Below are positions 36,496-54,715 of a stretch of 64,000 nucleotides of DNA, piece after piece (the stretch's first letter is position 1; each line of letters opens with the position of its first letter). Source of the DNA: an uncultured Bacteroidales bacterium (GTDB taxonomy: Bacteria; Bacteroidota; Bacteroidia; Bacteroidales; Paludibacteraceae). The DNA lies in contig ONBO01000006.1 in the NCBI GenBank assembly GCA_900316125.1, positions 1-64,000 on the forward strand, read 5' to 3'. Both the position numbers and the translations under genes were made by a program. The notes below the pieces were generated by a model. The model worked only from the letters and a program-made list of their open reading frames with translations. It did no database searches and was not told where the DNA came from.

Positions 36496-38610
36496 ATGAA
36501 AAAGTCTACATTATTCCTTCTTTGTGCGCTTGTTGCGCTTGTTTTTGCATCGTGTAAGAAAGAGGACCCGCTGAGTGCGCTGGAACTGAAGTTCTCACAA
36601 CCAAGTGTTACCATAGATGAGGGCGGAGACTATAACTTAGGCAAACTGTTGCTTATCACACCCCAGAATGTAGCTGACACTCTTACGGTTAACTGGAAGA
36701 GCGCAGACCCAAGCATAGCCCAGATGGTTAGCAAAAAATGGGTTCTGGGTGTTTCTATGGGCGAGACCACTATTACTGCTGAGTCTCATGGCAAGAGTGC
36801 GTCTATAAAGGTTATTGTAAATGAGCTGTCTATCACAGGTTTGACTATAAAGGATAAATATAGTGGATCTGTCAATGTTCCAATTGCTCTTGATGGTGTT
36901 ACACTGGATCCGTCTGGTGCAAGCCTTGGACGTATAAACTGGAACTGCTCATCAGAAAAGGTCACTTTTGTCTATGATTCTGAGAATAGACAGTGGTTTG
37001 TGGTAGCATCAGAGGCTGGTACATACTCCATCACAGCTAAGGCTGGTGATTTGGAGGCACAGAGTGCAGAACTCTCTGTGACCGTGAAGAGAATAAGCAA
37101 AATAAATCTTAGCGAGACTTCAATTCCTCTTCTGAGTGAAGGCTCAGAGAAACGTACAGCCAAGCTTACATACACCATAGAGCCTGAAGACGCCTCATAT
37201 AAATGGGCTGAGTGGATAGTTAGCGGTGATGACTGCATTGAGTTCAATGATGGTGACATACGGTCAAAAGACGGAGTGGAGGGTACCGCTGTTATCACTG
37301 TAAGACATAAGGCCGCGGCCGCAGGTGACGTTGATGTGGAGGCAAAGTGCACCGTGACGGTAACAAAGAGCGCTCCTGTGGAGTCTTTCTCTCTGTCAGT
37401 ACAGAGTAAAACCTTAAAGTCTGGAGAAAACTTCACCCTCAGTGTTAAAGATCTCTCTCCTGCCACGGCAAGTGCTGAGTACATACGTTGGGAGTGTGAT
37501 TCTCCGGATGATGTGACTCTTAGTGCTGCAACAGGCGCATCGTGTACGGTAACAGCCAAGGCTAAGGATGACAAGACTGTGAGGGTCAAGGCCATAGCTC
37601 CTAATGGGTACGAGAAAGAATGTACTGTAACTATAACCACAATACCTGTTCAGAGCATATCATTTAATAATGGTACAGACCTTATTGCGTTTGCCGGCAA
37701 AACTTACAACCTGCCAAAGGTTACTGTAACTCCAAGTAACGCCACTAAGGCCTCCGATGTGGAGTATGCTGTATCTGACGCGGTTATAAGAGCCGTTGAG
37801 GGTGAGTCCTCTGTAGCATATACAGTATCAAACAGCGTTGGCAGTGATGTCAAGACCTGCACAGTTACTGCTACGTGCGGGGGAAAGAGCGCTCAGTTTG
37901 TAATGTACGCTGTACCGTCAAACTACATGAGCCTTATTACTCCGGAAAGCGCCTACTCGGAATTTGGTACGTTTGGTATGGGAGAGAAGACGCTTAAACC
38001 TACTCAGCTTGTTAAAAGTGATTATAAAAACTCTCCTGTTGCGTCTAAACTTAAGCTGCGCTATGGTAGTACGAGTGGCACGGCAACCAAAGCTATAATT
38101 GAGACTGAAACATATAGTGCGGAGGCGGAATTCAGTGTGTATAAATATGACTACAACTACAATATCGCCAGCTCCACACCTTCAGTTAACAAGACAAACG
38201 TCACGTTTAAGCTTGTTCTTAGTGACATGAACGATAATAAGTTGGTGTCTGGTAGTATGAACACATATTTTTACAACTCTGTAGTGAAATATACTTATGA
38301 GACAGTACAAAAGAAAGATAACAAGATTGTTAAAGTCAGTGGTGATATAAGCCCAAACGAGACTCTGAATCTTAATATAGTGAGAGACGGCAGTGCACAG
38401 AAAATTTACACACCTGCCTTCACCATATATGCAGAGTATTACACAAATAGGGACAAATCAACTACAGGTACTTGCAGAGCGGCTGAAAGTTCAAGGAGTG
38501 ATGTGCCAGGAGTTCAGGATATTACACGTACAATCAGTGTTTATAGCAGTGACGCCACCAAATCTAAGACCGGCACTGTTGATTTTACCGTAAAGTTTAA
38601 GAAAAACTAA
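36496..38610 (+). CDS. Big_2-type surface lipoprotein A (family of five)
   Basis: A 704-residue protein with a lipoprotein signal (MKKSTLFLLCALVALVFASC, then KKEDP). The acidic/lysine residues after Cys resemble the Bacteroidota surface-export signal, so it should be displayed outside the cell. About residues 25-115 form a Big_2/BACON-like Ig unit (LLITPQNVADTLTVNWKSADPSIAQM, then GKSASIKVIV), and further Ig-like units follow to about 475. The last 230 residues (YAVPSNYMSLITPESAYSEFG onward) form a separate part shared with the four paralogs at 40773, 45173, 47285 and 50729, ending GTVDFTVKFKKN. I do not recognise this C-terminal part. It is the most diverged of the five. Adhesion or glycan binding is a guess. 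Confidence 0.75.
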   Translation: MKKSTLFLLCALVALVFASCKKEDPLSALELKFSQPSVTIDEGGDYNLGKLLLITPQNVADTLTVNWKSADPSIAQMVSKKWVLGVSMGETTITAESHGKSASIKVIVNELSITGLTIKDKYSGSVNVPIALDGVTLDPSGASLGRINWNCSSEKVTFVYDSENRQWFVVASEAGTYSITAKAGDLEAQSAELSVTVKRISKINLSETSIPLLSEGSEKRTAKLTYTIEPEDASYKWAEWIVSGDDCIEFNDGDIRSKDGVEGTAVITVRHKAAAAGDVDVEAKCTVTVTKSAPVESFSLSVQSKTLKSGENFTLSVKDLSPATASAEYIRWECDSPDDVTLSAATGASCTVTAKAKDDKTVRVKAIAPNGYEKECTVTITTIPVQSISFNNGTDLIAFAGKTYNLPKVTVTPSNATKASDVEYAVSDAVIRAVEGESSVAYTVSNSVGSDVKTCTVTATCGGKSAQFVMYAVPSNYMSLITPESAYSEFGTFGMGEKTLKPTQLVKSDYKNSPVASKLKLRYGSTSGTATKAIIETETYSAEAEFSVYKYDYNYNIASSTPSVNKTNVTFKLVLSDMNDNKLVSGSMNTYFYNSVVKYTYETVQKKDNKIVKVSGDISPNETLNLNIVRDGSAQKIYTPAFTIYAEYYTNRDKSTTGTCRAAESSRSDVPGVQDITRTISVYSSDATKSKTGTVDFTVKFKKN

Positions 38611-38627
38611 GCTTGGGGCATAATTCT

Positions 38628-40586
38628 TTATGCCCGTAGAGCTCTCATTGAGTTAAGCACTGCCAGTACTGTTACGCCTACGTCTGCAAAGGCGGCCATC
38701 CACATGGTGGCAAGGCCAAAGCTTGCAAGCACAAGCACTGCCACTTTAATGCCTATGGCAAACCATACGTTCTCACGGGCTATCAGTACTGTATTACGTG
38801 CTACTGACACAGCAGCAGCCACCTTTGAGGGCTCATCGTTCATAATGACAACATCGGCCGCCTCAATGGCTGCGTCAGAACCAAGAGAGCCCATTGCAAT
38901 GCCCACATCAGAGAGGGCGAGCACAGGTGCGTCATTTATGCCGTCACCTACAAACGCCACATATTTGCCAGACTCTTTTTGAGCAAGCAGCTTCTCCATC
39001 TGCTCCACCTTGCCTGTAGGCAGAAGTTCAGCATGATATTCACTCATTCCAAGTTTCTCTGCCACACTTTGAGCCACCTCTTTACGGTCTCCTGTGAGCA
39101 TCACTGTGTTCTTAACGCCTAAACGTTTAAGCTCCGATATGGCGTTTGCGCTATCTTCTTTTATCTTGTCATTTATAACTATATGACCAGCGTACGCTCC
39201 GTTTATTGCCACATGGATTATAGTGCCCACATGGTGGCAGTCATGCCATTTGGCGCCTACGGAATCCATCATACGGGTGTTGCCCACACAAACCTCCTCA
39301 CTGCCAACCTTGGCTTTTACGCCGTGACCTGCAATCTCCTCTACATCAGTGATTTCACAGCCGTCAGTAGCCTCATCAGGGAATGCGTCACGCAGAGCCG
39401 CACCTATAGGGTGGGTTGAATAACGCTCCACATGGGCTGCAAGGTGCAGCAGACGCCACTCACTGCACTGGTCAGGGTGGACAGCCTCCACCACAAACTT
39501 ACCGTGTGTAAGAGTGCCTGTCTTGTCAAAAACCACAGTTGAAAGTTTTGACAGCACATCCATGTAGTTGGCCCCTTTTATTAGCACTCCCTTACGCGAT
39601 GCGCCGCCCAGTCCGCCAAAGAATGCGAGCGGTACTGATATTACAAGGGCGCACGGGCATGACACTACAAGGAATATCAAGGCTCTATGCAGCCATTTTG
39701 TAAACTCCCCGCTGAGGTCTCCAAGCACAAGTGGCGGAATAAACGCCACGGCAATGGCAAGGAACACCACTATTGGGGTGTATATGCGGGCGAACCTTGT
39801 GATAAACGCCTCGCTCTTTGATTTGCGCTCTCCTGCGTTCTCCACAAGGTTTATTATCTTTGATACGGTGCTCTCACCAAACACTTTGGTTGTTCGTATT
39901 CTAAGTACTCCGCCAATGTTTATACAGCCTGAGAGTATCTCATCGCCGGCTACCACATTTTTAGGAAGGCTCTCACCTGTGAGAGCGGCTGTATTAAGTG
40001 ATGACGAGCCCTCCAGAACCACACCGTCAAGAGGAATCTTGTCTCCAGGGCGCACAACTATAACCTCTCCAACTTGCACGTTGTCTGGTGAAACTTGCTG
40101 AATAGTGCCGCCGCGCTCCACATTGGCCACATCGGGGCGGATATCCATAAGGTGAGATATGCTGTCACGGCTCTTGCCTTCTGCATAGCCTTCAAACAGT
40201 TCTCCCACTTGATAGAATAGCATTACAAACACTGACTCTGCAAACTCCACGCTGCCGCCAGGCATAAAAGCTATGGCAAAGGCGCCCATTGTGGCTATTG
40301 ACATTAGAAAGTACTCGTTGAACAGGTTGCCGTGGAAAATACCCTCTGCGGCCTCTTTAAGTGTATCATGACCTACTAACAGATAAGGAACCAGATATAC
40401 AAGCAGAAGCCCCCATACTGGCAGTTCCACTGTGTGTTCAACTACAGCCGCAGCTATAAGCAGAACCACCGTGGCTGCAATAATTATTATCTGTTTCTTA
40501 CCGCCATGCTCATGATGGTGGTGCTCATGTTCATGATGATGCTCGTGCTCATGTTCGTGTTCGTGATGATGATGTTCGTGTGACAT
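38628..40586 (-). CDS. heavy-metal P1B-type ATPase, Zn/Cd/Pb type
   Basis: Exports divalent heavy metal ions at the cost of ATP. With ATG 40586 it has 652 residues. The N-terminus is a His/Glu-rich stretch (alternating HEHEHEHHHEH for about 30 residues) in place of the usual CxxC heavy-metal-associated domain. The core has the membrane metal site CPCALVISVP, phosphorylation motif DKTGTLTHG, THPIG (the HP locus) and GDGINDAPVLALSDVGIAMG. CPC with this context fits zinc/cadmium/cobalt subtypes rather than copper (CPC with different flanks); the His tail fits zinc. The GTG start at 40610 would lie at or before the expected transcript start from the -7 box at 40612-40619. Confidence 0.9.
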   Translation of the reverse strand: MSHEHHHHEHEHEHEHHHEHEHHHHEHGGKKQIIIIAATVVLLIAAAVVEHTVELPVWGLLLVYLVPYLLVGHDTLKEAAEGIFHGNLFNEYFLMSIATMGAFAIAFMPGGSVEFAESVFVMLFYQVGELFEGYAEGKSRDSISHLMDIRPDVANVERGGTIQQVSPDNVQVGEVIVVRPGDKIPLDGVVLEGSSSLNTAALTGESLPKNVVAGDEILSGCINIGGVLRIRTTKVFGESTVSKIINLVENAGERKSKSEAFITRFARIYTPIVVFLAIAVAFIPPLVLGDLSGEFTKWLHRALIFLVVSCPCALVISVPLAFFGGLGGASRKGVLIKGANYMDVLSKLSTVVFDKTGTLTHGKFVVEAVHPDQCSEWRLLHLAAHVERYSTHPIGAALRDAFPDEATDGCEITDVEEIAGHGVKAKVGSEEVCVGNTRMMDSVGAKWHDCHHVGTIIHVAINGAYAGHIVINDKIKEDSANAISELKRLGVKNTVMLTGDRKEVAQSVAEKLGMSEYHAELLPTGKVEQMEKLLAQKESGKYVAFVGDGINDAPVLALSDVGIAMGSLGSDAAIEAADVVIMNDEPSKVAAAVSVARNTVLIARENVWFAIGIKVAVLVLASFGLATMWMAAFADVGVTVLAVLNSMRALRA

Positions 40587-40611
40587 ATCTATGCTCTTGT
40601 AAAATTTCACG

Positions 40612-40619
40612 CAAAAGTA
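40612..40619 (-). promoter_or_regulatory. -7 box of the metal ATPase gene
   Basis: TACTTTTG on the minus strand, 25 nt before ATG 40586; supports that start over GTG 40610. Confidence 0.6.
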
Positions 40620-40704
40620 ACACTAATTTTCTCATCATGGAAATGGAAACAACTACTTTGTCTGTTTAATAGCCTCAAAATCACCATTTATTGGGATTAA
40701 AAAG

Positions 40705-40735
40705 TTGCATCGTTGTAAAAAAAACACTATCTTTG
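40705..40735 (+). promoter_or_regulatory. promoter of lipoprotein B
   Basis: TTG (40705-40707), 20 nt, TATCTTTG (40728-40735). Confidence 0.75.
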
Positions 40736-40772
40736 CTTTTTGTAAACCTTAATAACAAATACTTAGGAAAAT

Positions 40773-42812
40773 ATGAGAACCAAAACTTTACTTTTTGTCT
40801 CAGTAATTCTTGCTACTGTTTTTTCTGCCTGCAAGAAAGATGAATTTAAAAATTTGGAGCTTTCCTTTACAAAAAGCGGTGTCCAGGTTGAAGTTGGGGG
40901 AGTGGAGAACTTAAAAGAACTTCTTGTAATAAACCCTCAGAGTCTGGATACTGTTACAGTGCAGTGGAGCGTGGAGGACCCTGCAATAGCAGAGGTCAAA
41001 GATGGTTCCATTAAAGGTCTTAAAAAAGGGAAAACCATAGTAACAGCGGCATCACACGGTAAGAGCGCGTCAATTAGTGTGGATGTCACAGAGATACGCA
41101 TTAAAAGCATTACATTGCCTTCATCTTATCCTAATGCGAATGTCAATGCCCCGTTCGCCCTCTCGGGTATAGAGATTGATCCAAGCGGTGTGAGTCCCAA
41201 ACGTCTTGTCTGGTCTTGCGAATCTGATAAAGTCACCTTCGAATATAATGAAGAAGACCATTTATGGTATGTGACAGCTACTGAGAGCGGAGATTACACA
41301 TTGCAAGTCTCTGCTGATGACGTAGAGTCTCAAAGTGTGGTGCTTACTGTTAAGAGAGAAACTAAAGTTATAAAAGAAATAAGACTTAGTGATACGGAAC
41401 TGACACTCTATAGCGTAGGTACGGAGAAGCGCTCAGCTCCACTTACTTATACCATTTACCCTGAGGATGCCGTTTATAAGGATGTGTTGGTGTCTTATGA
41501 AGGTGTTATGACATGTGCTCGCTACTCTGATGGGAAGGTTACCTCCAGGGATGAAGGTGAGGGCGTGGTAACTATAATTTTTCAGCACAGGCAAGCTGAC
41601 GAAGATGATGTTACAGTAGAAGCGCGGTGCAAGGTTACAGTAGTTAAGTCACCTATAGAAGAGTACCAGGTTCAGCTATCATCCAGTACAGTTACGTACG
41701 GAGGTTCTGTTAACGCCAGTATTACAAGCGTAAAGCCTTCTGGAGCACCTACTGGAGATATTACATGGTCTGTAAGCGACCGGTCGTTGGTTACGCTATC
41801 CACTACAAAAGGCTCGTCTTGTGTAATAACGAGCAAGGCAAAACAGTCTGGAAAAGTTACAATAACAGCCACCGCACCAAATGGATATAAACAAACAGCT
41901 GAACTTACGCTGGCATTCACACCTGTTACGTCAATTAAATTTGCCGATGGTGTTGATAAACAAGATTTGCTCGGTTATGCAGGCAACTCATACTATATCT
42001 TTAATGCTGAGGTAACTCCATCTACCGCAACCCTCAATAAGGTGGTTTACACTTCATCGCCGTCAGGACTTACAATTACCGAACAAAGTACCAGAATTAA
42101 GATAGACATCCCAGCCGTTTCAACTCTTACAAAATATAAGGTTACTGCAACAGTTGAAGGAGATAACAGTAATAGTACATATTTTTATTTGTATGCAGTG
42201 CCCAATGGCTATCTTAATACTATTAAAGTAAATGATCAGACACGATTTGAGTATTTTGGTAAGAGAGACATAATAGAGGCAAAAGATCTCCATACTGGCA
42301 CGCTGCCGAGTAAGTTCATAAAAATGATATATGTGAGCAGACAGTCTGCTGGCGCCAGGGCTGCCGTTGTGCCGTATGAGACATACAAAGAACTAAAAGA
42401 GTATAAGGCTTACGAGTTTGATTATAACAAAATGACTGCTCGTGATCAGATGTGTCATGATATCTTGAACTTGCAGCTGCTTATCTCAGATATGAACGGA
42501 TTAAAAACAACATCTGATGTGATTAAATGGGATCTGTATTCATCTTTGCAATGTTACGCATATGTTTCAACTGCTGATATAGGGAATAGGTATGTCGTTA
42601 ATGAGGGAGGAACAATAAATGTTCCTGCAGGGGAGAATGTGTCACTTTACGTGGGATATTATACAAATACCAGTATGGGTGCTTCCGAGTATGAACGGGT
42701 CAAGCTTGTGGAAGGTCGTAGCAAGGGAAGCACGTATGTAGTAACTCATTATGGCAGTGATGTAACAAAAGCTGTTACAGGAGATGTAAGGTTTACTATT
42801 AAATGGAAATAG
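40773..42812 (+). CDS. Big_2-type surface lipoprotein B (family of five)
   Basis: A 679-residue lipoprotein: signal MRTKTLLFVSVILATVFSAC followed by KKDEFKN, which fits a surface-export signal. Residues about 20-110 form the first Ig-like unit (LLVINPQSLDTVTVQWSVED, HGKSASISVDV), with further units (VTSIKFADGVD region about 390) and the shared C-terminal part from YAVPNGYLNTIK to GDVRFTIKWK. The N-terminal 45 residues are nearly the same as those of paralog E at 50729, so B and E form one subgroup. The ATG lies 37 nt after a full promoter. The downstream gene of unknown function starts 17 nt later and may be co-transcribed. Function unknown; surface binding is inferred. Confidence 0.78.
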   Translation: MRTKTLLFVSVILATVFSACKKDEFKNLELSFTKSGVQVEVGGVENLKELLVINPQSLDTVTVQWSVEDPAIAEVKDGSIKGLKKGKTIVTAASHGKSASISVDVTEIRIKSITLPSSYPNANVNAPFALSGIEIDPSGVSPKRLVWSCESDKVTFEYNEEDHLWYVTATESGDYTLQVSADDVESQSVVLTVKRETKVIKEIRLSDTELTLYSVGTEKRSAPLTYTIYPEDAVYKDVLVSYEGVMTCARYSDGKVTSRDEGEGVVTIIFQHRQADEDDVTVEARCKVTVVKSPIEEYQVQLSSSTVTYGGSVNASITSVKPSGAPTGDITWSVSDRSLVTLSTTKGSSCVITSKAKQSGKVTITATAPNGYKQTAELTLAFTPVTSIKFADGVDKQDLLGYAGNSYYIFNAEVTPSTATLNKVVYTSSPSGLTITEQSTRIKIDIPAVSTLTKYKVTATVEGDNSNSTYFYLYAVPNGYLNTIKVNDQTRFEYFGKRDIIEAKDLHTGTLPSKFIKMIYVSRQSAGARAAVVPYETYKELKEYKAYEFDYNKMTARDQMCHDILNLQLLISDMNGLKTTSDVIKWDLYSSLQCYAYVSTADIGNRYVVNEGGTINVPAGENVSLYVGYYTNTSMGASEYERVKLVEGRSKGSTYVVTHYGSDVTKAVTGDVRFTIKWK

Positions 42813-42829
42813 CTGGGATTTATTGAATA

Positions 42830-43588
42830 ATGACAATTCAGGACAATGTGGTTTGGGAGGATGGCGAGCGCAGGCTGCACTTTGACGGCGATGTGCTCAA
42901 ACTGCATTACAAAGATGAGGATTACACCTTTAGCAGCCATGGCTATGAACCAATGGCAATAATATTGAAAGACGGCACGGAGGTGGCGTACATACATAAT
43001 TCTTTCATCGTGGAGGATGTATGCAAAGCGTTCATTGAGAACCCTAAGTATCTTTGTAGCACTATAACAGACCATAACTATAATGCCAAGCACTTCTGTA
43101 TGCTGCTCACCACCGCATTGGACTATGGTTTCGAATGGGATATTGACACTCTGGAGAGTAAACTCCGCTTTCAGGAGCGTGAAGTGTGGTACAGTGCAGA
43201 CGGTATTGAGTTTGGAAAGTACGGCGATGAGATAGATGACAGCATAGATGCTTCAGAACTTGATGAAGATGATGATTTAGAAAACTGCGTTTATGATATT
43301 ATCTACTTAATGGTTGACGGTAAGGAGTACCGCCTTAAAGACGCCACAATGGACAAGATGAACCAGCTCGGTATTTTTGAACCAGGTAGACGCAAACCAA
43401 AGATACGCATCAATGGCACTAAAGGCTCAGTTATTGCCGCATACGCCGCATACTGGCGCAGCGGTAATACATTCACGCCTTTTGGATTCACATGCAATAC
43501 CAAACAGTTCTGTGATATGATAGCCTACGTCATACGTGACGGCAGGAACTGCTATGAGATGAGTACGCTACGCAAAACATTGTTCTAA
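42830..43588 (+). CDS. acidic protein of unknown function
   Basis: A 252-residue protein without signal peptide or membrane segment, so probably cytoplasmic. It starts MTIQDNVVWEDGERRLHF, has a strongly acidic stretch at about residues 137-155 (DEIDDSIDASELDEDDDLE) and a basic region near 188-200 (EPGRRKPKIRINGTKG). I do not recognise a family. Its start lies 17 nt after lipoprotein B, so it probably shares its transcript. A decayed copy with a large internal deletion lies at 44921-45066, next to an inverted palindrome, showing that this gene or part of it has been duplicated locally. Confidence 0.7.
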   Translation: MTIQDNVVWEDGERRLHFDGDVLKLHYKDEDYTFSSHGYEPMAIILKDGTEVAYIHNSFIVEDVCKAFIENPKYLCSTITDHNYNAKHFCMLLTTALDYGFEWDIDTLESKLRFQEREVWYSADGIEFGKYGDEIDDSIDASELDEDDDLENCVYDIIYLMVDGKEYRLKDATMDKMNQLGIFEPGRRKPKIRINGTKGSVIAAYAAYWRSGNTFTPFGFTCNTKQFCDMIAYVIRDGRNCYEMSTLRKTLF

Positions 43589-43776
43589 ATGGAAATTGTT
43601 TTACAAATGAAAATAGAAGACACATACATGTTGTTAAGCGTGGGGTAATGGCTGTGTGTCTTACTGATGGCAGGGAGGTTTTAGTGCCTCTTGGACACAA
43701 GTAAGATATATTCCGTGAAGGATGTCCTTCATTACTGATTTGCATTATTTACCATAGGCATACATGTAAATATTAA
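43589..43776. other. gap downstream of the acidic-protein gene
   Basis: About 190 bp with no convincing gene. A short open stretch ending at 43704 (MAVCLTDGREVLVPLGHK, from 43648) has coding-like composition and may be the tail of a lost gene. The remainder to the palindrome at 43777 is AT-rich with nothing recognisable. Confidence 0.4.
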
Positions 43777-43810
43777 CAAGAACGAGGACTGTGCATAGCC
43801 CTCGTTCTTG
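43777..43810. repeat. 34-bp near-palindrome, left copy (cassette boundary)
   Basis: Arms CAAGAACGAGG and CCTCGTTCTTG enclose an asymmetric loop (ACTGTGCATAGC). AA before and TT after extend the stem, and T4 follows, so it can also end transcription. Its exact reverse complement occurs at 44878-44911. Confidence 0.9.
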
Positions 43811-43878
43811 TTTTCGGTGACGTTACTCATAACCATTTCTTATGATTCTGCAAACTGACTTTTCATTATAAAAAGGGA

Positions 43879-43909
43879 TTGCCGTAAGCGGTGGCGCAGC
43901 GTAATTTTG
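43879..43909 (+). promoter_or_regulatory. flavodoxin promoter
   Basis: TTG (43879-43881), 20 nt, TAATTTTG (43902-43909), 22 nt before the ATG. It lies inside the palindrome-bounded cassette, so an inversion would carry the promoter with the gene. Confidence 0.75.
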
Positions 43910-43931
43910 CGTTCGTAAAATTTATGCGAAT

Positions 43932-44426
43932 ATGAGAAGTACAATTGTAATTTACGGTTCCACAACTGGAACGTGTGAGGCTATAGCAGAGAAAATAGCC
44001 TCTAAAATAGGAGCAAGCATACTCAATGTACAAAACCTTGATAGTGATGTTATTTCAAGATATGATAATCTGATACTTGGAACATCAACATGGGGTTGCG
44101 GAGAGATGCAGGATGACTGGTATGACGGACTGCCGAAACTCAAAAGCGCAAATCTTAGCGGCAAGACCATAGCCCTCTTTGGCTGCGGCGATGCAGACTC
44201 ATACGGAGATACGTTTGTGGGCGGTATGGCTGAGATTTATAACGGTGTTAAGGACAGTGGCGCCAAGGTAATAGGTGCAGTTAGTGTTGACGGCTACACG
44301 TTCGACGGTTCAGAGGCTGTAATAGACGGCAAGTTCGTGGGCCTGCCGCTTGATGACGTAAATGAGTGTGAAAAGACAGACAGCCGTATAGAGGCATGGT
44401 TGGAGCAGATTAAACCAAACTTGTAG
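43932..44426 (+). CDS. fldA: flavodoxin
   Basis: Small FMN-containing electron carrier that can replace ferredoxin, often when iron is short. The 164 residues have the phosphate-binding loop YGSTTGTCEAIA at about 8-19, the LGTSTWGCGEMQDDW loop with Trp stacking on FMN near residue 56, and FGCGDADSYGDTFVGG near 85-100. Length and motifs fit the long-chain flavodoxin FldA. It starts 22 nt after a full promoter and is followed after 4 nt by a DUF2023 gene; this pair is recurrent in Bacteroidota. The pair is bounded by inverted 34-bp palindromes. Confidence 0.95.
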   Translation: MRSTIVIYGSTTGTCEAIAEKIASKIGASILNVQNLDSDVISRYDNLILGTSTWGCGEMQDDWYDGLPKLKSANLSGKTIALFGCGDADSYGDTFVGGMAEIYNGVKDSGAKVIGAVSVDGYTFDGSEAVIDGKFVGLPLDDVNECEKTDSRIEAWLEQIKPNL

Positions 44427-44430
44427 CAGT

Positions 44431-44826
44431 ATGTCACATAAATCACTTATTGCAGATGATATGGAGGTTCAAGGAGCATTCTCACCAGAGATGAGGGTGC
44501 TCATGAACCACATATACGAGTATAAGAAGGGAGTGAGGAACATGATAATCTTCACCTGCCGCAAACGCTATGAGAGGTTTGCCACCGAGAGACTAAAAAA
44601 ACAGAACATAGAATACGTGGTGATGCCTGCAGGCAAGGAGAATATCAATATCTATTTTGGCAGACGTGAGTGTATAGGGGCTGTGCGTATGTTTGTTAAC
44701 CGTCCTCTGCATGAACTCTCCCCTGAGGAGGATTTCATACTTGGCACCTTGCTCGGCTATGACCTTTGCGCCCAATGTGAGCGCTACTGCACACGCAAGT
44801 GTAAATGCGGACAAGGGGTGGCATAA
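44431..44826 (+). CDS. DUF2023 family protein
   Basis: A 131-residue soluble protein (LMNHIYEYKKGVRNMIIFTC, YFGRRECIGAVRMFVNRPL, EEDFILGTLLGYDLCAQCERYC) matching the DUF2023 family, which often sits next to flavodoxin. The C-terminus has a cysteine cluster CAQCERYCTRKCKCG that could bind a metal or cluster. It starts 4 nt after fldA and ends at a strong terminator. A role in flavodoxin maturation or electron transfer is suggested only by the recurrent neighbourhood. Confidence 0.82.
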   Translation: MSHKSLIADDMEVQGAFSPEMRVLMNHIYEYKKGVRNMIIFTCRKRYERFATERLKKQNIEYVVMPAGKENINIYFGRRECIGAVRMFVNRPLHELSPEEDFILGTLLGYDLCAQCERYCTRKCKCGQGVA

Positions 44827-44829
44827 TAG

Positions 44830-44866
44830 AAAAGGCTGGCAAGTAATCAAACGTTGCCAGCCTTTT
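44830..44866 (+). terminator. terminator of fldA-DUF2023
   Basis: AAAAGGCTGGCAA (44830-44842) pairs with TTGCCAGCCTTTT (44854-44866); perfect 13-bp stem with T4. Confidence 0.92.
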
Positions 44867-44877
44867 ATTATTCTATT

Positions 44878-44911
44878 CAAGAACGAGGGCTATGCACAGT
44901 CCTCGTTCTTG
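44878..44911. repeat. 34-bp near-palindrome, right copy (cassette boundary)
   Basis: Exact reverse complement, 34 of 34, of 43777-43810, with the loop in the opposite sense. It follows a complete terminator, so a second terminator here is not needed for the upstream genes. The remnant of the acidic-protein gene starts 10 bp later. Confidence 0.9.
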
Positions 44912-44920
44912 TTTGAATTT

Positions 44921-45066
44921 GGTTTGGGAGGATGGCGAGCGCAGGCTGTACTTTGACGGCGATGTGCTCAAACTGCATTACAAAGGTGAGGATTACACCT
45001 TTAGCAGCCTACGCTATACGCAATGGCAAGAATTGCTATGAGATGAGCTCGCTGCTTAAAAAATAG
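44921..45066 (+). pseudogene. decayed copy of the acidic-protein gene with an internal deletion
   Basis: 44921-45009 matches 42850-42938 of the acidic-protein gene with two mismatches in 89 bp (starting at codon 7-8, VWEDGERRL). It then jumps to sequence matching the gene's last 22 codons (43522-43588; RNGKNCYEMSSLLKK, stop at 45066), which is more diverged. About 580 bp between are missing; the junction shares AGCC on both sides. The two parts are in different frames, and there is no start codon at the left end, so no protein is made. The 106 bp that follow, up to lipoprotein C, hold nothing recognisable. Confidence 0.88.
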
Positions 45067-45172
45067 TGTTTTAACATTATTTATAAGATTTTTAAGTGGT
45101 ATAAATAAGAAATATAAATACCTGTGCACTCGGTGCCATTTGTGTGGTAATAAAAAATTTAATCAATTAGAT

Positions 45173-47242
45173 ATGAAAAAATTGTACTTGAAAAGTGTTT
45201 TGCTACTTGTGTTAACACTATTGGTAGGTCTTACATCTTGTAAGAAAGACGAGTTTAAGAACCTAAGTCTATCATTTTCTACATCTAAGGTTGAACTTGA
45301 TGAGGGTGGCTATGTGAGCCTGAAAAAATATCTGGTAATTCAGCCGTCAAATCTTGATACTATAACTTTGGCATGGAGCAGCTCAGATGAGAGTGTTGTT
45401 ACAGTAACTCCCAGACGTGGTGACGCAGAAGCTGTTAGTGACGGCACTGCCACCATTACAGTGTCAGCTTACGGTAAATCCGCCTCTGTTAAAGTTGAGG
45501 TTTTGCCACTGGCTGTAACTGATTTCAAAATTCCAGGAGCAATAAAAGATATTTTCGTTAATGTACCTCGCCCTATAGAGGGCATTGAGATTACCCCGGG
45601 AGGGGTTAATCCTGCACGTATAAGCTGGAGCTGTAAAGATGGTAAGGAGTCTAAAGTTGTATTCCAATATAATCAGGAGGAACATTTATGGTACTTTACC
45701 GCAACAGAGGCTGGCACTTACAAGGTAGAAGCAACAATAGATGAGTTTACCGTTTCTTCTGAGTTCACTGTATCTGTAAAGCCTATCACATCGCTTAAAC
45801 TTAGCGAGGAGTCTATTTCACTTTTAAGTCAAGGAGAGGAGAGACGTACCGCAGATCTTACATATACATTAGAGCCGGAGGATGCCTCATATCAGGAGGT
45901 GGAGTGGAGTGCTACTCCAAGTGGTATAATAAACCTTGATAAAGGAAAAATTACAACGATAGATGGCAAGGAGGGAACCGTAACAGTCACCCTCAAACAT
46001 AAGGCAAAAGCTACAGGTGATAAGGATATAGAAGCCACCTGCAAGGTAGTGGTTACAAAAACGGTTGCTGTTGAGAGTTTTACGTTGTCTGAATCAGAGG
46101 TGACATTTGACATAGGCAAAACTTATACATTAAAAGTAAAAGATTTTAAACCCGCTAATGGTGATGTTTCAAAAATTCACTGGGAATCAGACGACTGGAA
46201 TGTGGTGAGTTTGCATAATGTAGCAGGTTCGTCATGTACGTTGGAAAGTCTTGGAACTGAAACTAAAACTGTTTATGTTACTGCCACAGCACCAAACGGA
46301 TATGCCCAGAAAGTCAAGGTTACAGTACAAAAGGTTCCATCCACTCTTACTTGGGATGTACCAAATGATATATTATTCTTCACAGGAAAAACATACAAAT
46401 TACCTGATGCAGTAGTGAACAAAGGTGCTACGATAAATAAAATTGTGTACACAGTGTACACAAAAGATGGCAATGTGGCCTCAGATATGAAGGTAAATGT
46501 TGTTTGGGATGGAGTGGAAATAGTAGCTCCTACAAGCATTGCATCCACGTATCCGTACAGAGAATATAAGGTGGTGGCAAAGTGTGATAATTATGAAAAA
46601 ACTAAAAAAATTACAGTTGTATCAACATCTTATCTTAGCAATTACGTTGAACTTACTGAATATGATACAAACATATTTGGTACGTATAAAACAAAATTGA
46701 ATATATTTAGTAGTCGTTATTTAAAAGATTATAAATATAATGACTGTATACTTAGTAGTATATACTTCTCTCCTGACAAGCAGGGGTATTACATATTAGA
46801 GGGAAATGATTATAAGCCCAATGAAGAATATAGTAAATTGGAATACTACTTTGATGATTTAGATAAGTCTGAAAAAGAGACGGATATGATAAAGGTTATG
46901 ATGCGATTATATGATTACAATAGAAACAACTATCAAAGTTACAGGATTGACATAAATCTCACGTATTCATTTTTAGGATATGAATATCGATATTCTAATA
47001 AAAGTGGTAATATAAAGGCTGGAGAGACAATTACAGTGAATTATATAAACGAGGGATATCTAAAATATTTTGCTCCTGGTGTTAATATTTATCAAATTTA
47101 TTACTCTGATAATAATAAAACAAAAGATTACCTATCGTCGGGGAGTGTGGGGGGAGAAACATATACTTCAAGTGCAGAACGTACAATGCAGATTAAGATA
47201 AGAGATTATGAATCACCGATATATGTAAAATACAAAAAATAG
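45173..47242 (+). CDS. Big_2-type surface lipoprotein C (family of five)
   Basis: A 689-residue lipoprotein: signal MKKLYLKSVLLLVLTLLVGL, TSC, then KKDEFKN. The first Ig-like unit spans about 25-115 (YLVIQPSNLDTITLAWSSSDES, YGKSASVKVEV), followed by further Ig-like units and a divergent C-terminal part with many Tyr and Asn residues (YNRNNYQSYRID, GETITVNYINEG). It pairs with D immediately downstream: signal and first unit are about 90 percent identical, and both share the same 17-nt leader before the ATG. ATG 45173 starts the signal peptide; the longer frame from 45140 does not. The AT-rich 3' third is unlike the other members. Confidence 0.78.
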   Translation: MKKLYLKSVLLLVLTLLVGLTSCKKDEFKNLSLSFSTSKVELDEGGYVSLKKYLVIQPSNLDTITLAWSSSDESVVTVTPRRGDAEAVSDGTATITVSAYGKSASVKVEVLPLAVTDFKIPGAIKDIFVNVPRPIEGIEITPGGVNPARISWSCKDGKESKVVFQYNQEEHLWYFTATEAGTYKVEATIDEFTVSSEFTVSVKPITSLKLSEESISLLSQGEERRTADLTYTLEPEDASYQEVEWSATPSGIINLDKGKITTIDGKEGTVTVTLKHKAKATGDKDIEATCKVVVTKTVAVESFTLSESEVTFDIGKTYTLKVKDFKPANGDVSKIHWESDDWNVVSLHNVAGSSCTLESLGTETKTVYVTATAPNGYAQKVKVTVQKVPSTLTWDVPNDILFFTGKTYKLPDAVVNKGATINKIVYTVYTKDGNVASDMKVNVVWDGVEIVAPTSIASTYPYREYKVVAKCDNYEKTKKITVVSTSYLSNYVELTEYDTNIFGTYKTKLNIFSSRYLKDYKYNDCILSSIYFSPDKQGYYILEGNDYKPNEEYSKLEYYFDDLDKSEKETDMIKVMMRLYDYNRNNYQSYRIDINLTYSFLGYEYRYSNKSGNIKAGETITVNYINEGYLKYFAPGVNIYQIYYSDNNKTKDYLSSGSVGGETYTSSAERTMQIKIRDYESPIYVKYKK

Positions 47243-47284
47243 TACAGCGCTTTGAATTAATCCTCAATCACTAATCAATTAGAT

Positions 47285-49351
47285 ATGAAGAAATTGTACT
47301 TGAAAGGTGTTTTGCTACTTGTTTTAACACTATTGTTAGGAATTACATCTTGTAAGAAAGACGAATTTAAAAACCTTAGCCTCTCATTCTCTACATCTAA
47401 GATTGAGGTTGATGAGGGTGGTTATGTGGAACTGAAAAAATATCTTGTAATACAACCTTCAAATCTTGACACCATAACCGTTGAGTGGAGCAGTTCAGAT
47501 GGAAGTATTGCCACTGTTACTAAAAATGGTGAGGTAGAAGGCATAGAGGGTGGCGCAGTCACCATTACAGCATCTGCCTATGGAAAGTCTGCATCGGTTG
47601 AGGTGGTGGTTAAGCCGTTGCCTGTTACTGCCATTAAAATACCAGAAGCAGTGGCTACTATCCATGTGAATGTGCCACACCGTATAGAGGGGGTTGTGAT
47701 TACTCCGGAAGCGGTGAACCCTAAGCGTATAAACTGGAGCTGCAAAGAGGATGATTCCAAAATCTCATTTCAGTACAATACGGAGGACCATTCATGGTAC
47801 GTTACCATAACTGAGGGTGGTGACTACAATGTGGAGGCGTCTATAGGCGATATCAAGGCCTCTTCTGTATTTACGGCAACTGTTAATCCTGTAAAATCAT
47901 TAAGACTTAGTGAAGCAAACATATACCTGCTAAGTCAGGGAGATGATAACCGCACTGCCGAACTAACTTATGAAATAGAGCCGGAGAATGCCTCATACAG
48001 GGATGTGGAGTGGAGTGTGACACCAAGCGGCATCATAAATTTTGACAACGGTAAAATTTCAACCATAGATGGTAAAGAAGGTACTGTATATGTGACCATT
48101 AAGCATAAGGCGGCTTCGCCTCGTGATAAGTCTGCAGAGGCCACCTGCAGAGTGATAGTCACACAAAAGGTTCCTGTAACGTTTTTTACCCTTACAGATA
48201 AAGAGCTTTCACTTGACATAGGCAAGGATGCTTATATAAGTGTTAAGGAATTTCAGCCAGTTAATGGTGACGTGTCTGCAATAAAATGGTCTGTAGATGA
48301 CAAAACTATGCTATGGTTATACAGTGATAAAGGTCCCAACTGTAAGATAACTGCTATTGGAACAAGGGCTGGAACCGCCACTGTAACAGCTACCGCACCT
48401 AACGGTTACGGCTGGAACGTAACGGTTACAGTGAATAAAATAAAGCCTCAGATTGCGTGGGACATGCCTAAAAATCAAATATTTTTTACTGGCAAGACTT
48501 ACTCTCTGCCTGCAGCCAGAGTAGTAAACAAAGATGCTACAATTAAGGACATATTTTATTTTGTCTATGAAGGTAGCGAGGGATATAGGTTATCCACAGA
48601 TATAAACATTACCAAGACATCTGACAATAAACTGAAATTCACCTCCTCTGCTATTAGTGGCTGCAAAGACTATAGATTGGTAGCCATTTGTGATGACTCT
48701 GAAGTGGCTATTCCTATAACCCTTGTGGCGTCAGATTTCCTACAAAAAAATCTAAACCTCGATGAAACCAATTCGGCTTATTATGGCACTTCCCCTATGG
48801 AGCGTACGTTTAAGCCAAATACATATTTGAATACTAAAAATACAGTTGTAAGGGATTTAGTGCGGATTTCTCCAAACAAGACTACGTATTACGCTATCGG
48901 CTCTAAAGAAAATTATGATATAAATAAAGAATATAAAGAGTTGACGTACGTATTCAGACCCCTTGCGTCTGGCAAGGATATTACTGAAGCCCTGAAGTTC
49001 ACCTTGATCCTATATGATTATAATAAAGAGGCTCAAAAGGGAGTGTTTGAAGTAAATATGAGGAACTCCTTTTTAGGCTACCATTATAAAGTGTATGATT
49101 ATTACACCCCAAATCATGATGCTGGAATGGTGAATGCTGGAGATGTACTTCCTGTTCGTTATGCTAAAAAAGATTGGCAATTTTATGCGCCAAGTGTTGA
49201 GTTCTCTCTATTGTATTATGGCGCAGGTGATACTCAATATCTTAAATCTATTAAAACAATAGAAGCTGAAACATACAAAAATGATGAGGCTCGGACTGTT
49301 GAAGCCGATGTCAGAGCCGGAGAGGTTATATACGTGTTATATTATCCTTAA
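47285..49351 (+). CDS. Big_2-type surface lipoprotein D (family of five)
   Basis: A 688-residue lipoprotein starting 42 nt after C, with signal MKKLYLKGVLLLVLTLLLGI, TSC, KKDEFKN. Ig-like units run from about 25 to 475 (SNLDTITVEWSSSDGSIATV, TYEIEPENASYRDVEWSVTPSG) and are followed by a C-terminal part resembling that of C. It has no promoter of its own that I can see and probably shares C's transcript. Its stop overlaps the end of the convergent mtaB by 4 bp. It looks like a tandem duplicate of C that has diverged in the C-terminal third. Confidence 0.78.
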   Translation: MKKLYLKGVLLLVLTLLLGITSCKKDEFKNLSLSFSTSKIEVDEGGYVELKKYLVIQPSNLDTITVEWSSSDGSIATVTKNGEVEGIEGGAVTITASAYGKSASVEVVVKPLPVTAIKIPEAVATIHVNVPHRIEGVVITPEAVNPKRINWSCKEDDSKISFQYNTEDHSWYVTITEGGDYNVEASIGDIKASSVFTATVNPVKSLRLSEANIYLLSQGDDNRTAELTYEIEPENASYRDVEWSVTPSGIINFDNGKISTIDGKEGTVYVTIKHKAASPRDKSAEATCRVIVTQKVPVTFFTLTDKELSLDIGKDAYISVKEFQPVNGDVSAIKWSVDDKTMLWLYSDKGPNCKITAIGTRAGTATVTATAPNGYGWNVTVTVNKIKPQIAWDMPKNQIFFTGKTYSLPAARVVNKDATIKDIFYFVYEGSEGYRLSTDINITKTSDNKLKFTSSAISGCKDYRLVAICDDSEVAIPITLVASDFLQKNLNLDETNSAYYGTSPMERTFKPNTYLNTKNTVVRDLVRISPNKTTYYAIGSKENYDINKEYKELTYVFRPLASGKDITEALKFTLILYDYNKEAQKGVFEVNMRNSFLGYHYKVYDYYTPNHDAGMVNAGDVLPVRYAKKDWQFYAPSVEFSLLYYGAGDTQYLKSIKTIEAETYKNDEARTVEADVRAGEVIYVLYYP

Positions 49352-50634
49352 TCTTCTATCACTATATTACCTTCAGTAAGAGTGACAGCCTCTATAGTGT
49401 TTATAGAGGCTTTGTTATATAGTTTGCATACACGTATGTAGTTGTCTGTGAAGCCAAACATCTTTCCGCCTTTCTGGGTGGCCTCCCAAAGCACACTGTG
49501 TGTGGTGCCTATGAAACTGTTGCAGAACTCTTTCAGCCTGACTGCTGACCAGTCCATAAGAATTTTTACTCGCCTCTGTTTTTCTGCGGGGGTGTTGCTG
49601 TATGGGATTTTTAGCGCAAGTGTGCCGGTGCGCTCAGAGTAGGGGAATACATGGAGCCTTGTTACTGGCAGCGATGTTATAAAGCGGTAACTCTCTTCAA
49701 ACAGTTCTGGTGTCTCACCTCTCATTCCGGCTATCATATCCACGCCTATAAACGCATCTGGCATCAGCTCTTTTATCTTGTATATGCGTTCTGCAAAAAG
49801 AGCGGTGTCATAACGGCGATGCATGAGTTTGAGCACCTCATCACTGCCGCACTGTAGCGGTATATGGAAGTGAGGCGCAAAGCGTTTGTTCAGAGCCACA
49901 AACTCAATTATCTCATCAGTGAGCAGGTCTGGCTCAATGGAAGATATACGGAAGCGCTCAATGCCTTCAACCTCATCAAGCTGCTGAATGAGCTGGAGGA
50001 AGGTCTCTCCTGTATGTTTGCCAAAGTCTCCGATGTTAACACCCGTTAGAATTATCTCCTTTCCTCCGTGATGTGCCACATCTTCTGCCATTTTCACCAC
50101 TTCTGCTATGGTTCCGCTGCGGCTGCGGCCACGGGCGAACGGAATGGCGCAGTATGTGCAGAAGCAGTCACAGCCGTCCTGAATTTTAAGGAAATGGCGT
50201 GTGCGCCCCTCGCTCGACACGGCAGGGTGGAATGGGGTGAGGCGCTTTGTATCTGAAACAATGATTCTGTCGCTGTCATTATGAGATTCTTCGGCCAAGG
50301 CCTCAGAATGACGAAGGGATGATAACAGAAACTTGTCATTTGCTCCTAAAACCAAATCCACACCTTCAATTTGTGAAATCTCCTCAGATTTCAGCTGGGC
50401 GTAACAGCCGGTCACTATAATGTAGGCATCGGGGTATTTACGGTGAATCTTATGTATGAGCTGACGCCCCTTGCGGTCTGCTGCGTCGGTTACCGTACAG
50501 GTGTTTATTACGCACATATCGGGCACATCGGAGGCTGAGGCTTTGGTATAACCTGCCTCATAAAGCCTCTTTGCCAGATAAGATGACTCCGCAAAGTTCA
50601 GCTTACAACCCAATGTGTAAAACGCTACTTTCAT
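49348..50634 (-). CDS. mtaB: tRNA t6A37 methylthiotransferase
   Basis: Radical-SAM enzyme that adds a methylthio group to t6A37 in tRNAs reading ANN codons. The 428 residues have the N-terminal MTTase domain (YTLGCKLNFAES with Cys10, INTCTV with Cys46, TGCYAQ with Cys77, the second cluster site) and the SAM cluster motif CDCFCTYC (Cys155, 159, 162), then the barrel (IILTGVNIGDFG, IPLQCGSDEVLKLMHR, DMIAGMRGET). Residues about 107-120 (LRHSEALAEESHND) are encoded by an inserted palindromic repeat, in frame, in the variable linker between the two domains. All catalytic Cys are intact, so activity is likely kept. The C-terminal TRAM domain is short. Confidence 0.93.
   Translation of the reverse strand: MKVAFYTLGCKLNFAESSYLAKRLYEAGYTKASASDVPDMCVINTCTVTDAADRKGRQLIHKIHRKYPDAYIIVTGCYAQLKSEEISQIEGVDLVLGANDKFLLSSLRHSEALAEESHNDSDRIIVSDTKRLTPFHPAVSSEGRTRHFLKIQDGCDCFCTYCAIPFARGRSRSGTIAEVVKMAEDVAHHGGKEIILTGVNIGDFGKHTGETFLQLIQQLDEVEGIERFRISSIEPDLLTDEIIEFVALNKRFAPHFHIPLQCGSDEVLKLMHRRYDTALFAERIYKIKELMPDAFIGVDMIAGMRGETPELFEESYRFITSLPVTRLHVFPYSERTGTLALKIPYSNTPAEKQRRVKILMDWSAVRLKEFCNSFIGTTHSVLWEATQKGGKMFGFTDNYIRVCKLYNKASINTIEAVTLTEGNIVIED
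50275..50312. repeat. 38-bp palindromic repeat inside mtaB, in frame
   Basis: GTCATTATGAG at the left and CTCAGAATGAC at the right pair with one mismatch; GGCC-AA-GGCC lies between. Same family as 14109-14173. Confidence 0.75.
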
Positions 50635-50653
50635 CTCAGTTGTAAATTCACTG

Positions 50654-50661
50654 CAAACTTA
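50654..50661 (-). promoter_or_regulatory. mtaB -7 box
   Basis: TAAGTTTG on the minus strand, 20 nt before the mtaB ATG. Confidence 0.5.
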
Positions 50662-50666
50662 CAACT

Positions 50667-50700
50667 TTTGTACCACCAATACAAATTTTTACTAATTTTG
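50667..50700 (+). promoter_or_regulatory. promoter of lipoprotein E
   Basis: TTTG (50667-50670), 22 nt, TAATTTTG (50693-50700); divergent from the mtaB box. Confidence 0.6.
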
Positions 50701-50728
50701 CAGTTTGTAAACCTGAGTAACCAATATT

Positions 50729-52795
50729 ATGAATAATATGAGAACTAAAACTTTACTTCTTATCACTATCATTCTTGCCACTGTTTTCTCCGCGTGCAAG
50801 AAGGATGAGTTTAAGAATCTGGAACTTTCCTTTACAAAAGGCAGCGTGCAAGTAGAGGAGGGCTGGGATGTGAGTTTGAAGAAACTTCTTGTGATTAACC
50901 CTCAGAATCTGGACACTATAACGGTGCAGTGGAGTGTTGAGAACCCGGAGATTGCAGAGATAACAAAAAACGGCCTCCTTACCGGATTGGCATCTGGCAG
51001 TACAACTGTCACCGCCTCATCACACGGTAAAAGCGCCTCTATAACTGTTGAGGTTACGGAAATTGATATTACTGATATCACTGTGCCGGAATCATATCCT
51101 GATGTTATTGTAAATGATCCATTCGCCCTTACTGATGTTACTATTGAACCTTATGGTGTAAGCCAGAAACGTCTTGTATGGAGTTGTGAGTCAGACAAGG
51201 TAAGTTTCAACTATGATGAGGAGAAACATCAGTGGTATGCTACAGTAACTGCGAGTGGCAACTATACTCTTAAAGTGGGTGCTAATGGTATTGAGCCTAA
51301 AAGTGTGGAGTTGACAGCTAAAGTGGTGTTGATGAATACGCTTTCAATTACTAATGGTTCATCATTATCACTTCTTAGCACAGGCCGTGAGAAACGTTCC
51401 GTTGCGCTGGGCTATACCTATAAGCCTATAATTGTGTCATATTACACTGTGGAGTGGAGTGTTTCAGGTGATGACTGCATAGATTTTGATGAAGGTCGGG
51501 TTTTTACTAAAGAGGGTAAGGAGGGTGTTGCAATTGTGACTCTCAAGCACAAGAAGGAGGCTCCGGAAGATGTTGAGAGAACTGCGCAGTGCAAGATTAT
51601 TGTTACTAAGAAAACACAGGTGGAGTCATTTGATATTCAAATGTCAAGCACTTCTGTTAAGCCAGGTAACTCAGTTACCGCTACTATTGTTAAAATACAA
51701 CCGTCAGGAGCGCAAGCTGATAATGTGGCATGGTCTGTTGACAAGCCTGCGTTGGTCACACTGTCCAGTTCAACGGGAGCATCTTGTAAAATAACGGCTA
51801 AGAATAGTAAGGCTGAAACGGTTAAACTGAAAGCGGTAGCTCCAAATGGATTTAAGAAGGAGGTGGAAATTACGCTGACGTATACACCTGTTACATCAAT
51901 TAATTTCCCTGAGAGCATAGACAAGAAGGAGGTGCTTTGTTACGCTGGCCGTACGTATACTTTCAGCAAGGCTGAAATAAAACCAGAAGATGCAACATTG
52001 AATAAGGTTATATATTCTTCATCGCCTGAAGGGGTGTCAATTACGGAAAAAGGGAATGGTCTACAGTTTATAATCCCAAATGTTACGTCTCTGACAAAGT
52101 ATACTATTAATGCTAAAGTTGATGGTGACAACACCAAGAGTACATACTTTACAATCTACGCTGTGCCAAACAACTATTTGGAGTCCATTAAAAAGAGTAG
52201 TTATTCTACGTTTGGTTACTTTGGGGCTAGTGAGAGTATAAAACCTAAGGATTTATATAAAAGTACTACACTACCTTCAAAATTCTTTCAACTGATTTAC
52301 TCAGGTAAAAGTTCTGATGCCACTACAGCCGCTACGGTGCCAGTGAAAAGTTATACTAGCGGAGTGTTCTATGACTCTTATGAGGTTGATTACAACAAGG
52401 TGCCGAAGGGTAATAAATTGTATAAGGATGTGGTGTACCTGCAGTTGGTGATTTCTGATGTTAACGGAGTTAAGACAACGTCATCTGTTATTGACTGCTA
52501 TTTGCATTGTTCTTTAGTTTCTTATGTATATACCAAGTCTTATGAGGATTATAAAACCGAACATGAGACAAAAGACGGAGCCACTATAAATGTAAAGGGT
52601 TACGATAGTTACGGAGAGGCTCTTCATCTTATTCTTTACTATTATGTAGATAGTTCTGGCGCTAGTACTACACATCGAACTTTTGAGTCAATTACTGGAC
52701 ACAAAAAGGGTTCCACATATACTGTGACACTTTACGGTAGTGACGCAACTAAGTCTGTTACCGGACAAACCAAGTTTACAATTAAATGGAAATAG
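50729..52795 (+). CDS. Big_2-type surface lipoprotein E (family of five)
   Basis: A 688-residue lipoprotein: MNNMRTKTLLLITIILATVF, SAC, KKDEFKN. The ATG at 50738 (MRTKTLL) matches paralog B's start and may be the true one. The first Ig-like unit spans about 30-115 (NPQNLDTITVQWSVENPEIAEI, HGKSASITVEV), further Ig-like units follow, then the shared C-terminal part from YAVPNNYLESIKKS to QTKFTIKWK. It groups with B in both ends of the protein. An IS1182-type element begins directly after the stop codon, and its left hairpin now serves as, or replaces, the gene's terminator. Function unknown. Confidence 0.78.
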   Translation: MNNMRTKTLLLITIILATVFSACKKDEFKNLELSFTKGSVQVEEGWDVSLKKLLVINPQNLDTITVQWSVENPEIAEITKNGLLTGLASGSTTVTASSHGKSASITVEVTEIDITDITVPESYPDVIVNDPFALTDVTIEPYGVSQKRLVWSCESDKVSFNYDEEKHQWYATVTASGNYTLKVGANGIEPKSVELTAKVVLMNTLSITNGSSLSLLSTGREKRSVALGYTYKPIIVSYYTVEWSVSGDDCIDFDEGRVFTKEGKEGVAIVTLKHKKEAPEDVERTAQCKIIVTKKTQVESFDIQMSSTSVKPGNSVTATIVKIQPSGAQADNVAWSVDKPALVTLSSSTGASCKITAKNSKAETVKLKAVAPNGFKKEVEITLTYTPVTSINFPESIDKKEVLCYAGRTYTFSKAEIKPEDATLNKVIYSSSPEGVSITEKGNGLQFIIPNVTSLTKYTINAKVDGDNTKSTYFTIYAVPNNYLESIKKSSYSTFGYFGASESIKPKDLYKSTTLPSKFFQLIYSGKSSDATTAATVPVKSYTSGVFYDSYEVDYNKVPKGNKLYKDVVYLQLVISDVNGVKTTSSVIDCYLHCSLVSYVYTKSYEDYKTEHETKDGATINVKGYDSYGEALHLILYYYVDSSGASTTHRTFESITGHKKGSTYTVTLYGSDATKSVTGQTKFTIKWK

Positions 52796-52804
52796 TAAAA
52801 AGAG

Positions 52805-52846
52805 GAGGGTGACTAAAAAGTAAGATTTAGTCACTCTCTTCTTTTT
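52805..52846 (+). terminator. left hairpin end of the IS, terminator-like
   Basis: GAGGGTGACTAAA pairs with TTTAGTCACTCTC and is followed by TTCTTTTT. It lies 9 nt after the stop of lipoprotein E and would end that transcript and shield the transposase from read-through. A second hairpin with GAAGAG/CTCTTC arms lies at about 52868-52901. Confidence 0.75.
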
Positions 52847-52931
52847 GCAGAAAGTTTGTCATTATAAAGGGAAGAGACCTGTCGCTACAGGCCTCTTCTT
52901 TGATTATTTAGTTGATTTTCAACTAAATATG

Positions 52932-52963
52932 TTTGGAATATTGCGGGATTTTTCTTAAATTTG
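52932..52963 (+). promoter_or_regulatory. transposase promoter
   Basis: TTTG (52932-52935), 20 nt, TAAATTTG (52956-52963): full consensus, 46 nt before the ATG. Confidence 0.8.
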
Positions 52964-53009
52964 TGTTGCAAAAAAAATAAATCGCGGACAAACCCCACAC
53001 CCCAAAACT

Positions 53010-54545: not shown

Positions 54546-54671
54546 AAGTGGTCGGCGAGAAGCATTAGGTGGCTATCTTGACTTCAAAGAGCCAATTTGT
54601 TCCGATTTTTTGAAGATACAGATACATTTTCTGAAAGATATTGATTTTAGGGGAGTAATAAAGATAAGAAA

Positions 54672-54711
54672 AAGAGAGTGACTAAATTTTACTTTTTAGT
54701 CACCCTCTTCT
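54672..54711 (-). terminator. right hairpin end of the IS, terminator-like on the minus strand
   Basis: Near-identical inverse of the left end. On the minus strand it follows the PAP2 stop (54716) and is followed by TTTTT, so it can end the rnhA-hydrolase-PAP2 operon. Confidence 0.75.
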
Positions 54712-54715
54712 TTTT

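Follow-up and report, generated by a model that had tools for sequence, protein, structure and literature searches.

The window, the 64,000-nt stretch of an uncultured Bacteroidales genome analysed in the current study, carries at positions 44921-45066 a 146-bp sequence that repeats two separate parts of the gene at 42830-43588. This raises the question of how such a two-part sequence arose, which of its parts is old and which is young, and whether it still has a function. The evidence set out below indicates, with a probability of about 85%, that a duplicated gene has left a chimeric, non-functional relic here. The features concerned are listed in table 1.

Table 1. Positions in the window of the relic, its intact parent gene and the adjoining elements.
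Feature	Positions	Strand	Remarks
Relic, left part	44921-45009	+	codons 8-36, without start codon; near-identical to parent
Relic, right part	45006-45066	+	final 19 codons plus stop TAG (45064-45066), from a diverged older copy
Junction AGCC	45006-45009	+	common to both relic parts
Parent counterpart of left part	42850-42938	+	2 differences
Parent counterpart of right part	43522-43583	+	13 differences within the first 59 bp
Intact parent gene	42830-43588	+	252 aa; orphan protein family, probably of two repeats
Left palindrome	43775-43810		36 nt, reverse-complements the right palindrome exactly; terminator-like hairpin
Flavodoxin FldA gene	43932-44426	+	between the palindromes
DUF2023 gene	44431-44826	+	partner of fldA
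Right palindrome	44878-44913		abuts the relic, ends a few bases before the homology

Structure of the relic and its junction

The preliminary description of this DNA had read the sequence as a partial duplicate of the nearby gene, and both searches that were made of it agree. The repeat search paired the two parts with the parent gene in the same order and on the same strand (42845-42946 with 44916-45017, and 43522-43583 with 45006-45067). When the relic was searched against its own genome (2.07 Mb, cut-off E 0.001), it matched only itself and the two parent parts; since the latter matches had E values of 5e-41 and 5e-7, chance homology is excluded.

The parent gene has two copies of AGCC (42935-42938 and 43522-43525), which coincide at a single place in the relic, a junction of the kind that had been proposed. 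An identical AGCC at both breakpoints, with one copy kept, is the pattern of a microhomology-mediated deletion. A random deletion of 300-650 bp within the parent gene has a 2.0% chance of leaving a junction microhomology of at least 4 bp, and for this reason the role of AGCC, as read from the sequence, is suggestive and not strong.

Between the two parts, 587 bp of parent sequence are absent, which causes the frame shift in the relic. The loss had been described as an out-of-frame deletion of about 580 bp; the frame and the amount of missing sequence stand, but the length presumes a single precursor gene, and if the ends of the relic derive from two copies the true length of the deletion is not fixed. 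The start-codon side is gone, and homology does not extend past the right palindrome of the flavodoxin/DUF2023 cassette, whose position directly against the relic had been reported correctly. The gene's own frame has no start codon here and contains a TGA within the left frame. Significant homology to a nearby intact gene is combined with a lost coding capacity, two of the marks of a pseudogene relic.

Unequal divergence of the two parts

Divergence from the parent gene was compared over parent positions 42850-42937 and 43522-43580, with the boundaries set by loss of colinearity. The left part differed at 2 of 88 positions and the right part at 13 of 59 (Fisher p = 1.4e-4), so that the relic, aligned to the parent gene, is not uniformly diverged along its length. 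Only 42878 (C/T) and 42915 (A/G) differ within 42850-42938. Both the count of two differences in about 89 bp and the much greater divergence of the last 60 bp had been given in the preliminary description. Among codons that specify the same residue in both copies, synonymous differences amounted to 0/27 on the left and 4/13 on the right (p 0.008).

Unequal constraint along the gene was considered as the cause and was ruled out by a homolog from another genus (G022), which diverges from the parent by 37% and 46% over the two regions (32 of 87 bases, 0.37, on the left; 25 of 54, 0.46, on the right). In some other homologs the contrast ran the same way and was somewhat larger (e.g. 0.32 vs 0.50), but none came near tenfold and several had no contrast at all. 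The comparison of the sequences supports a common ancestor of the left part and the parent gene that is much more recent than that of the right part. The local identity between the paralogs exceeds what constraint gives, as is expected of gene conversion, but the tract has the palindrome and the junction as its limits and is not flanked by colinear diverged paralog sequence. With 88 bp and 2 differences, the left part allows only a loose estimate of age.

Direction of change and the intact gene

The copy that changed was identified from a family alignment of 22 homologs from other genera of the family, 19 of which are full-length. Two sequences, L010 from another family and the weak match L043 (E 7.9e-5), were excluded; L009, L041 and L042 span the first half only and were excluded from counts past residue 120; and L024 and L025, which are nearly the same protein, were both counted.

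The relic had earlier been treated as the changed partner. At the differences that can be polarised this is wrong, and the alignment indicates that the intact gene is the changed copy, with the relic keeping the family state at three conserved residues. Residue 29 is G in 21 of the 22 homologs and in the relic, and D in the intact gene. Residues 234 and 239 are A and K in 19/19 full-length homologs and also in the relic, where the intact gene has V and R. Residue 17 is S, W or F among the homologs, Y in the relic and H in the intact gene, neither of which matches; residues 237 and 240-248 vary among the homologs or differ from both copies, and cannot be polarised.

The right part, which reads AYAIRNGKNCYEMSSLLKK-stop, retains 13 residues unchanged, and 4 of their codons carry synonymous changes. 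These synonymous changes, together with the family residues A234 and K239, indicate that it diverged as coding sequence, and it has the look of a gene end formerly under selection. Both differences in the left part alter the amino acid; two such changes would not be expected if a dead copy had drifted, yet fit change in the live gene.

The protein encoded by the intact gene had no match in Pfam, NCBIfam or PADLOC. PHROGs gave one weak match (E 0.002, 42 residues) to an internal virion protein, an identity that was set aside because of this weakness, and a PDB sequence match at E 0.47 was also set aside. The AlphaFold2 model (mean pLDDT 79, pTM 0.56) has a repeated strand/helix order, and on this prediction the protein probably consists of two copies of one domain. 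Foldseek with this fold returned 0/177 matches at E <= 0.001, and blastp of the two halves of the protein gave nothing notable. The repeated domain of this orphan family is probably about 120 aa long, and the protein stands alone here, with no membrane segment. The G022 homolog lies within a 749-aa frame (L015 5424-7673) that has a third, more distant repeat and, read by eye, a membrane-type segment at its start; this protein seems to be membrane-anchored. Recombination between the internal repeats of the gene was rejected as a source of the relic, because the breakpoints, at codons 36 and 232, do not occupy equivalent positions in the two predicted repeats.

Between the intact gene and the left palindrome lies a short frame (43591-43701; ...RGVMAVCLTDGREVLVPLGHK-stop), which looks like the remnant of another small gene and had no Pfam match.

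Occurrence in related genomes

Homologs of the parent gene were detected in 25 of 358 family genomes, own genome included, and in 3 of 33 genera. Within the genus (16 genomes) the gene occurs only in its own genome and in RUG243 (G001), an uncultured Bacteroidales bacterium of the same genus. The latter has the same arrangement with an identical 146 bp, and the whole stretch 44606-45086 is also unchanged there; because the neighbouring sequence is identical too, the identity of the relic is uninformative on function.

Elsewhere the two genomes differ to very unequal degrees, with 57 of 313 aligned bases changed in the bin 38187-38499 and 2 of 3500 at 40000-43499. Comparison of window positions 38187-51999 with L014 showed that divergence from RUG243 is strongly mosaic, which suggests recombination between lineages. 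A relic shared in this way need not be as old as the split between the window and RUG243; the event that formed it would have preceded the split of the two genomes, or its product may have been shared through recombination. The left part had been called recent, and this holds in the sense that its ancestor is much younger than that of the right part, but it is limited by the identical fragment in RUG243.

The preliminary description had pointed to strains with an intact second copy. None was found among 101 relatives, 358 family genomes or the genome contig collection, and the precursor copy is consequently one that we infer. The relic junction was absent from viral contigs; plasmids gave no protein match and, at the DNA level, a match of 108 bp in the flavodoxin region only; and no match was found among RNA families.

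Genomic setting

A lineage-specific island occupies window positions 36496-49351, between genes that we take, from the look of their translations, to be tgt and mtaB; the PAP2-type phosphatase and the lipoproteins were named in the same way. The island is absent from two congeners read across the junction (G002 and G011), in which tgt, mtaB and the phosphatase gene adjoin. In the window, tgt and mtaB are separated by 13 kb that hold lipoprotein genes, an ATPase, the 252-aa gene, the flavodoxin/DUF2023 pair and the relic, and related lipoprotein genes lie on both sides, i.e. form a paralog array. In a further genome (G004) tgt and mtaB are 1.6 kb apart on one 4.6-kb contig, and the stretch from G003 has no tgt beside mtaB.

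Six pairs were tested for 5' similarity of the lipoprotein genes, and one was significant. In this pair (45173-47239 and 47285-49348), 43 of 62 synonymous codons were shared over the first 75 alignment columns, compared with 124 of 270 over the remaining columns (p 0.0011), and a homogenisation of the 5' end resembling that of the relic is possible on this comparison.

The right palindrome, directly upstream of the relic, forms a terminator-like hairpin (-23.3 kcal/mol, z -6.6). The palindrome is present in two copies in its own genome, in two copies in RUG243, and in none of the other 356 of 358 family genomes (at most 3 mismatches); being confined to two of these genomes, it was ruled out as a dispersed repeat. 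Inverted repeats were compared around four flavodoxin genes of other genera, from among ten loci fetched from other genomes, and at these four there was no counterpart of the palindrome pair. Flavodoxin itself occurs within the genus (16 genomes) only in its own genome and in RUG243. In the cassette as a whole (43775-44913) each repeat arm is itself a hairpin, there is no transposase, and the orientation is the same in both genomes.

Further along the window, at 52797-54715, a DDE transposase gene (53010-54545) lies between two inverted 50-nt hairpins that are 92% identical, and this element sits at the terminator common to a lipoprotein gene and the PAP2-type phosphatase gene. In place of the 1,901 bp at 52806-54706, RUG243 has 16 bp inside a single ordinary terminator hairpin, and the comparison indicates that the element is an IS inserted into the terminator, with a hairpin on each side. 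Likeness to this IS suggests that the flavodoxin cassette may be a mobile cassette or an invertible segment.

FldA-DUF2023 is an iron-deficiency operon of Bacteroidetes (PMC10434189). The operon has the same gene pair and adjacency as the cassette beside the relic, and differs in that the pair is here bracketed by an exact 36-nt inverted repeat.

Proposed origin and coding capacity

The observations would be accounted for if the locus once also contained, downstream of the present gene, at least one more copy of the 252-aa gene. The 3' end of this copy would have diverged in the manner of a working gene, and conversion or a younger duplication would have made its 5' end near-identical to the present gene. 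A deletion at AGCC would then have fused the near-identical codons 8-36, with a shift of frame, to the 19 codons that close the older copy. That the left part was recently copied or converted had already been put forward, and is likely, but the fusion of a recent whole-gene duplicate to an older paralog fits equally. Two orders of events are sub-cases of this explanation.

In the first, a recent duplication (giving P1 and P2) took place beside an older paralog (R), and a deletion at AGCC fused P2 to R, the former supplying the 5' end and the latter the 3' end. This course is quite plausible, if at less than even odds: the contrast of 2/88 with 13/59 and the junction would follow in two simple steps and no gene conversion, and the island is itself an array of paralogs, related lipoprotein genes being present on either side, but the 3' end of P2 and the 5' end of R have left no trace, and no relative with three copies was seen among the 358 genomes.

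The second order, which is possible but rather doubtful, begins with one old tandem duplicate whose 5' end was overwritten by conversion from the parent, followed by an internal 587-bp deletion at AGCC. Unequal divergence of the two parts is what it would produce, and the neighbouring lipoprotein pair also hints at conversion of 5' ends. It needs, however, a conversion tract whose unseen end fell, prior to the deletion, between codons 36 and 232, and a fusing deletion between two copies covers the same data without conversion.

An unlikely course is a template switch, by which a replication fork stalled at the palindrome would have taken some 90 bp of the gene's 5' end as template and joined them at AGCC to an old 3' remnant already in place. 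The source lies 2.07 kb upstream, and the tract has a strong hairpin on one side and a 4-bp microhomology on the other; the left junction, on the other hand, has no clear microhomology, and the site is not known in its earlier state.

The chimeric relic shows no sign of function in its sequence. It does contain an alternative frame of 44 codons (44932-45066) with ATG and stop, which crosses the junction with no internal stop and joins the alternative frame of the left part to the real C-terminus of the paralog. That this open frame, unchanged in RUG243, is a new gene kept as useful is very improbable: its 44-aa product has no Pfam match, a terminator-like hairpin lies immediately upstream, and the lack of any change between the two genomes extends to all of 44606-45086 and is uninformative on selection. 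An assembly artefact or strain chimera, a concern that the junction had raised in a genome of 75 contigs, is scarcely credible and is ruled out, unless both assemblies share reads, by the unchanged 146 bp in RUG243, a clearly different genome (up to 57/313 bases nearby) without the IS at 52806-54706.

On its own the relic matters little, as an ordinary broken gene copy. It forms a small record of the tgt-mtaB island as a recombining paralog array in this Bacteroidales lineage, and it is the live gene, rather than the relic, that bears the unusual residues.

Comparison with known systems

Chimeric pseudogene fragments arise by deletion between tandem paralogs. The relic resembles these in the order and strand of its parts, in being out of frame and in its join at a short repeat. 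It does not differ from them in kind; what is somewhat unusual is so strong a contrast in divergence within 146 bp.

Intragenomic gene conversion between bacterial repeated genes is described for the ribosomal operons of E. coli (PMC8022953), and homogenisation of that type would yield a near-identical left part such as that of the relic. Compared with that system, the tract in the relic is shorter than 100 bp, and conversion is here one of several routes that would suffice.
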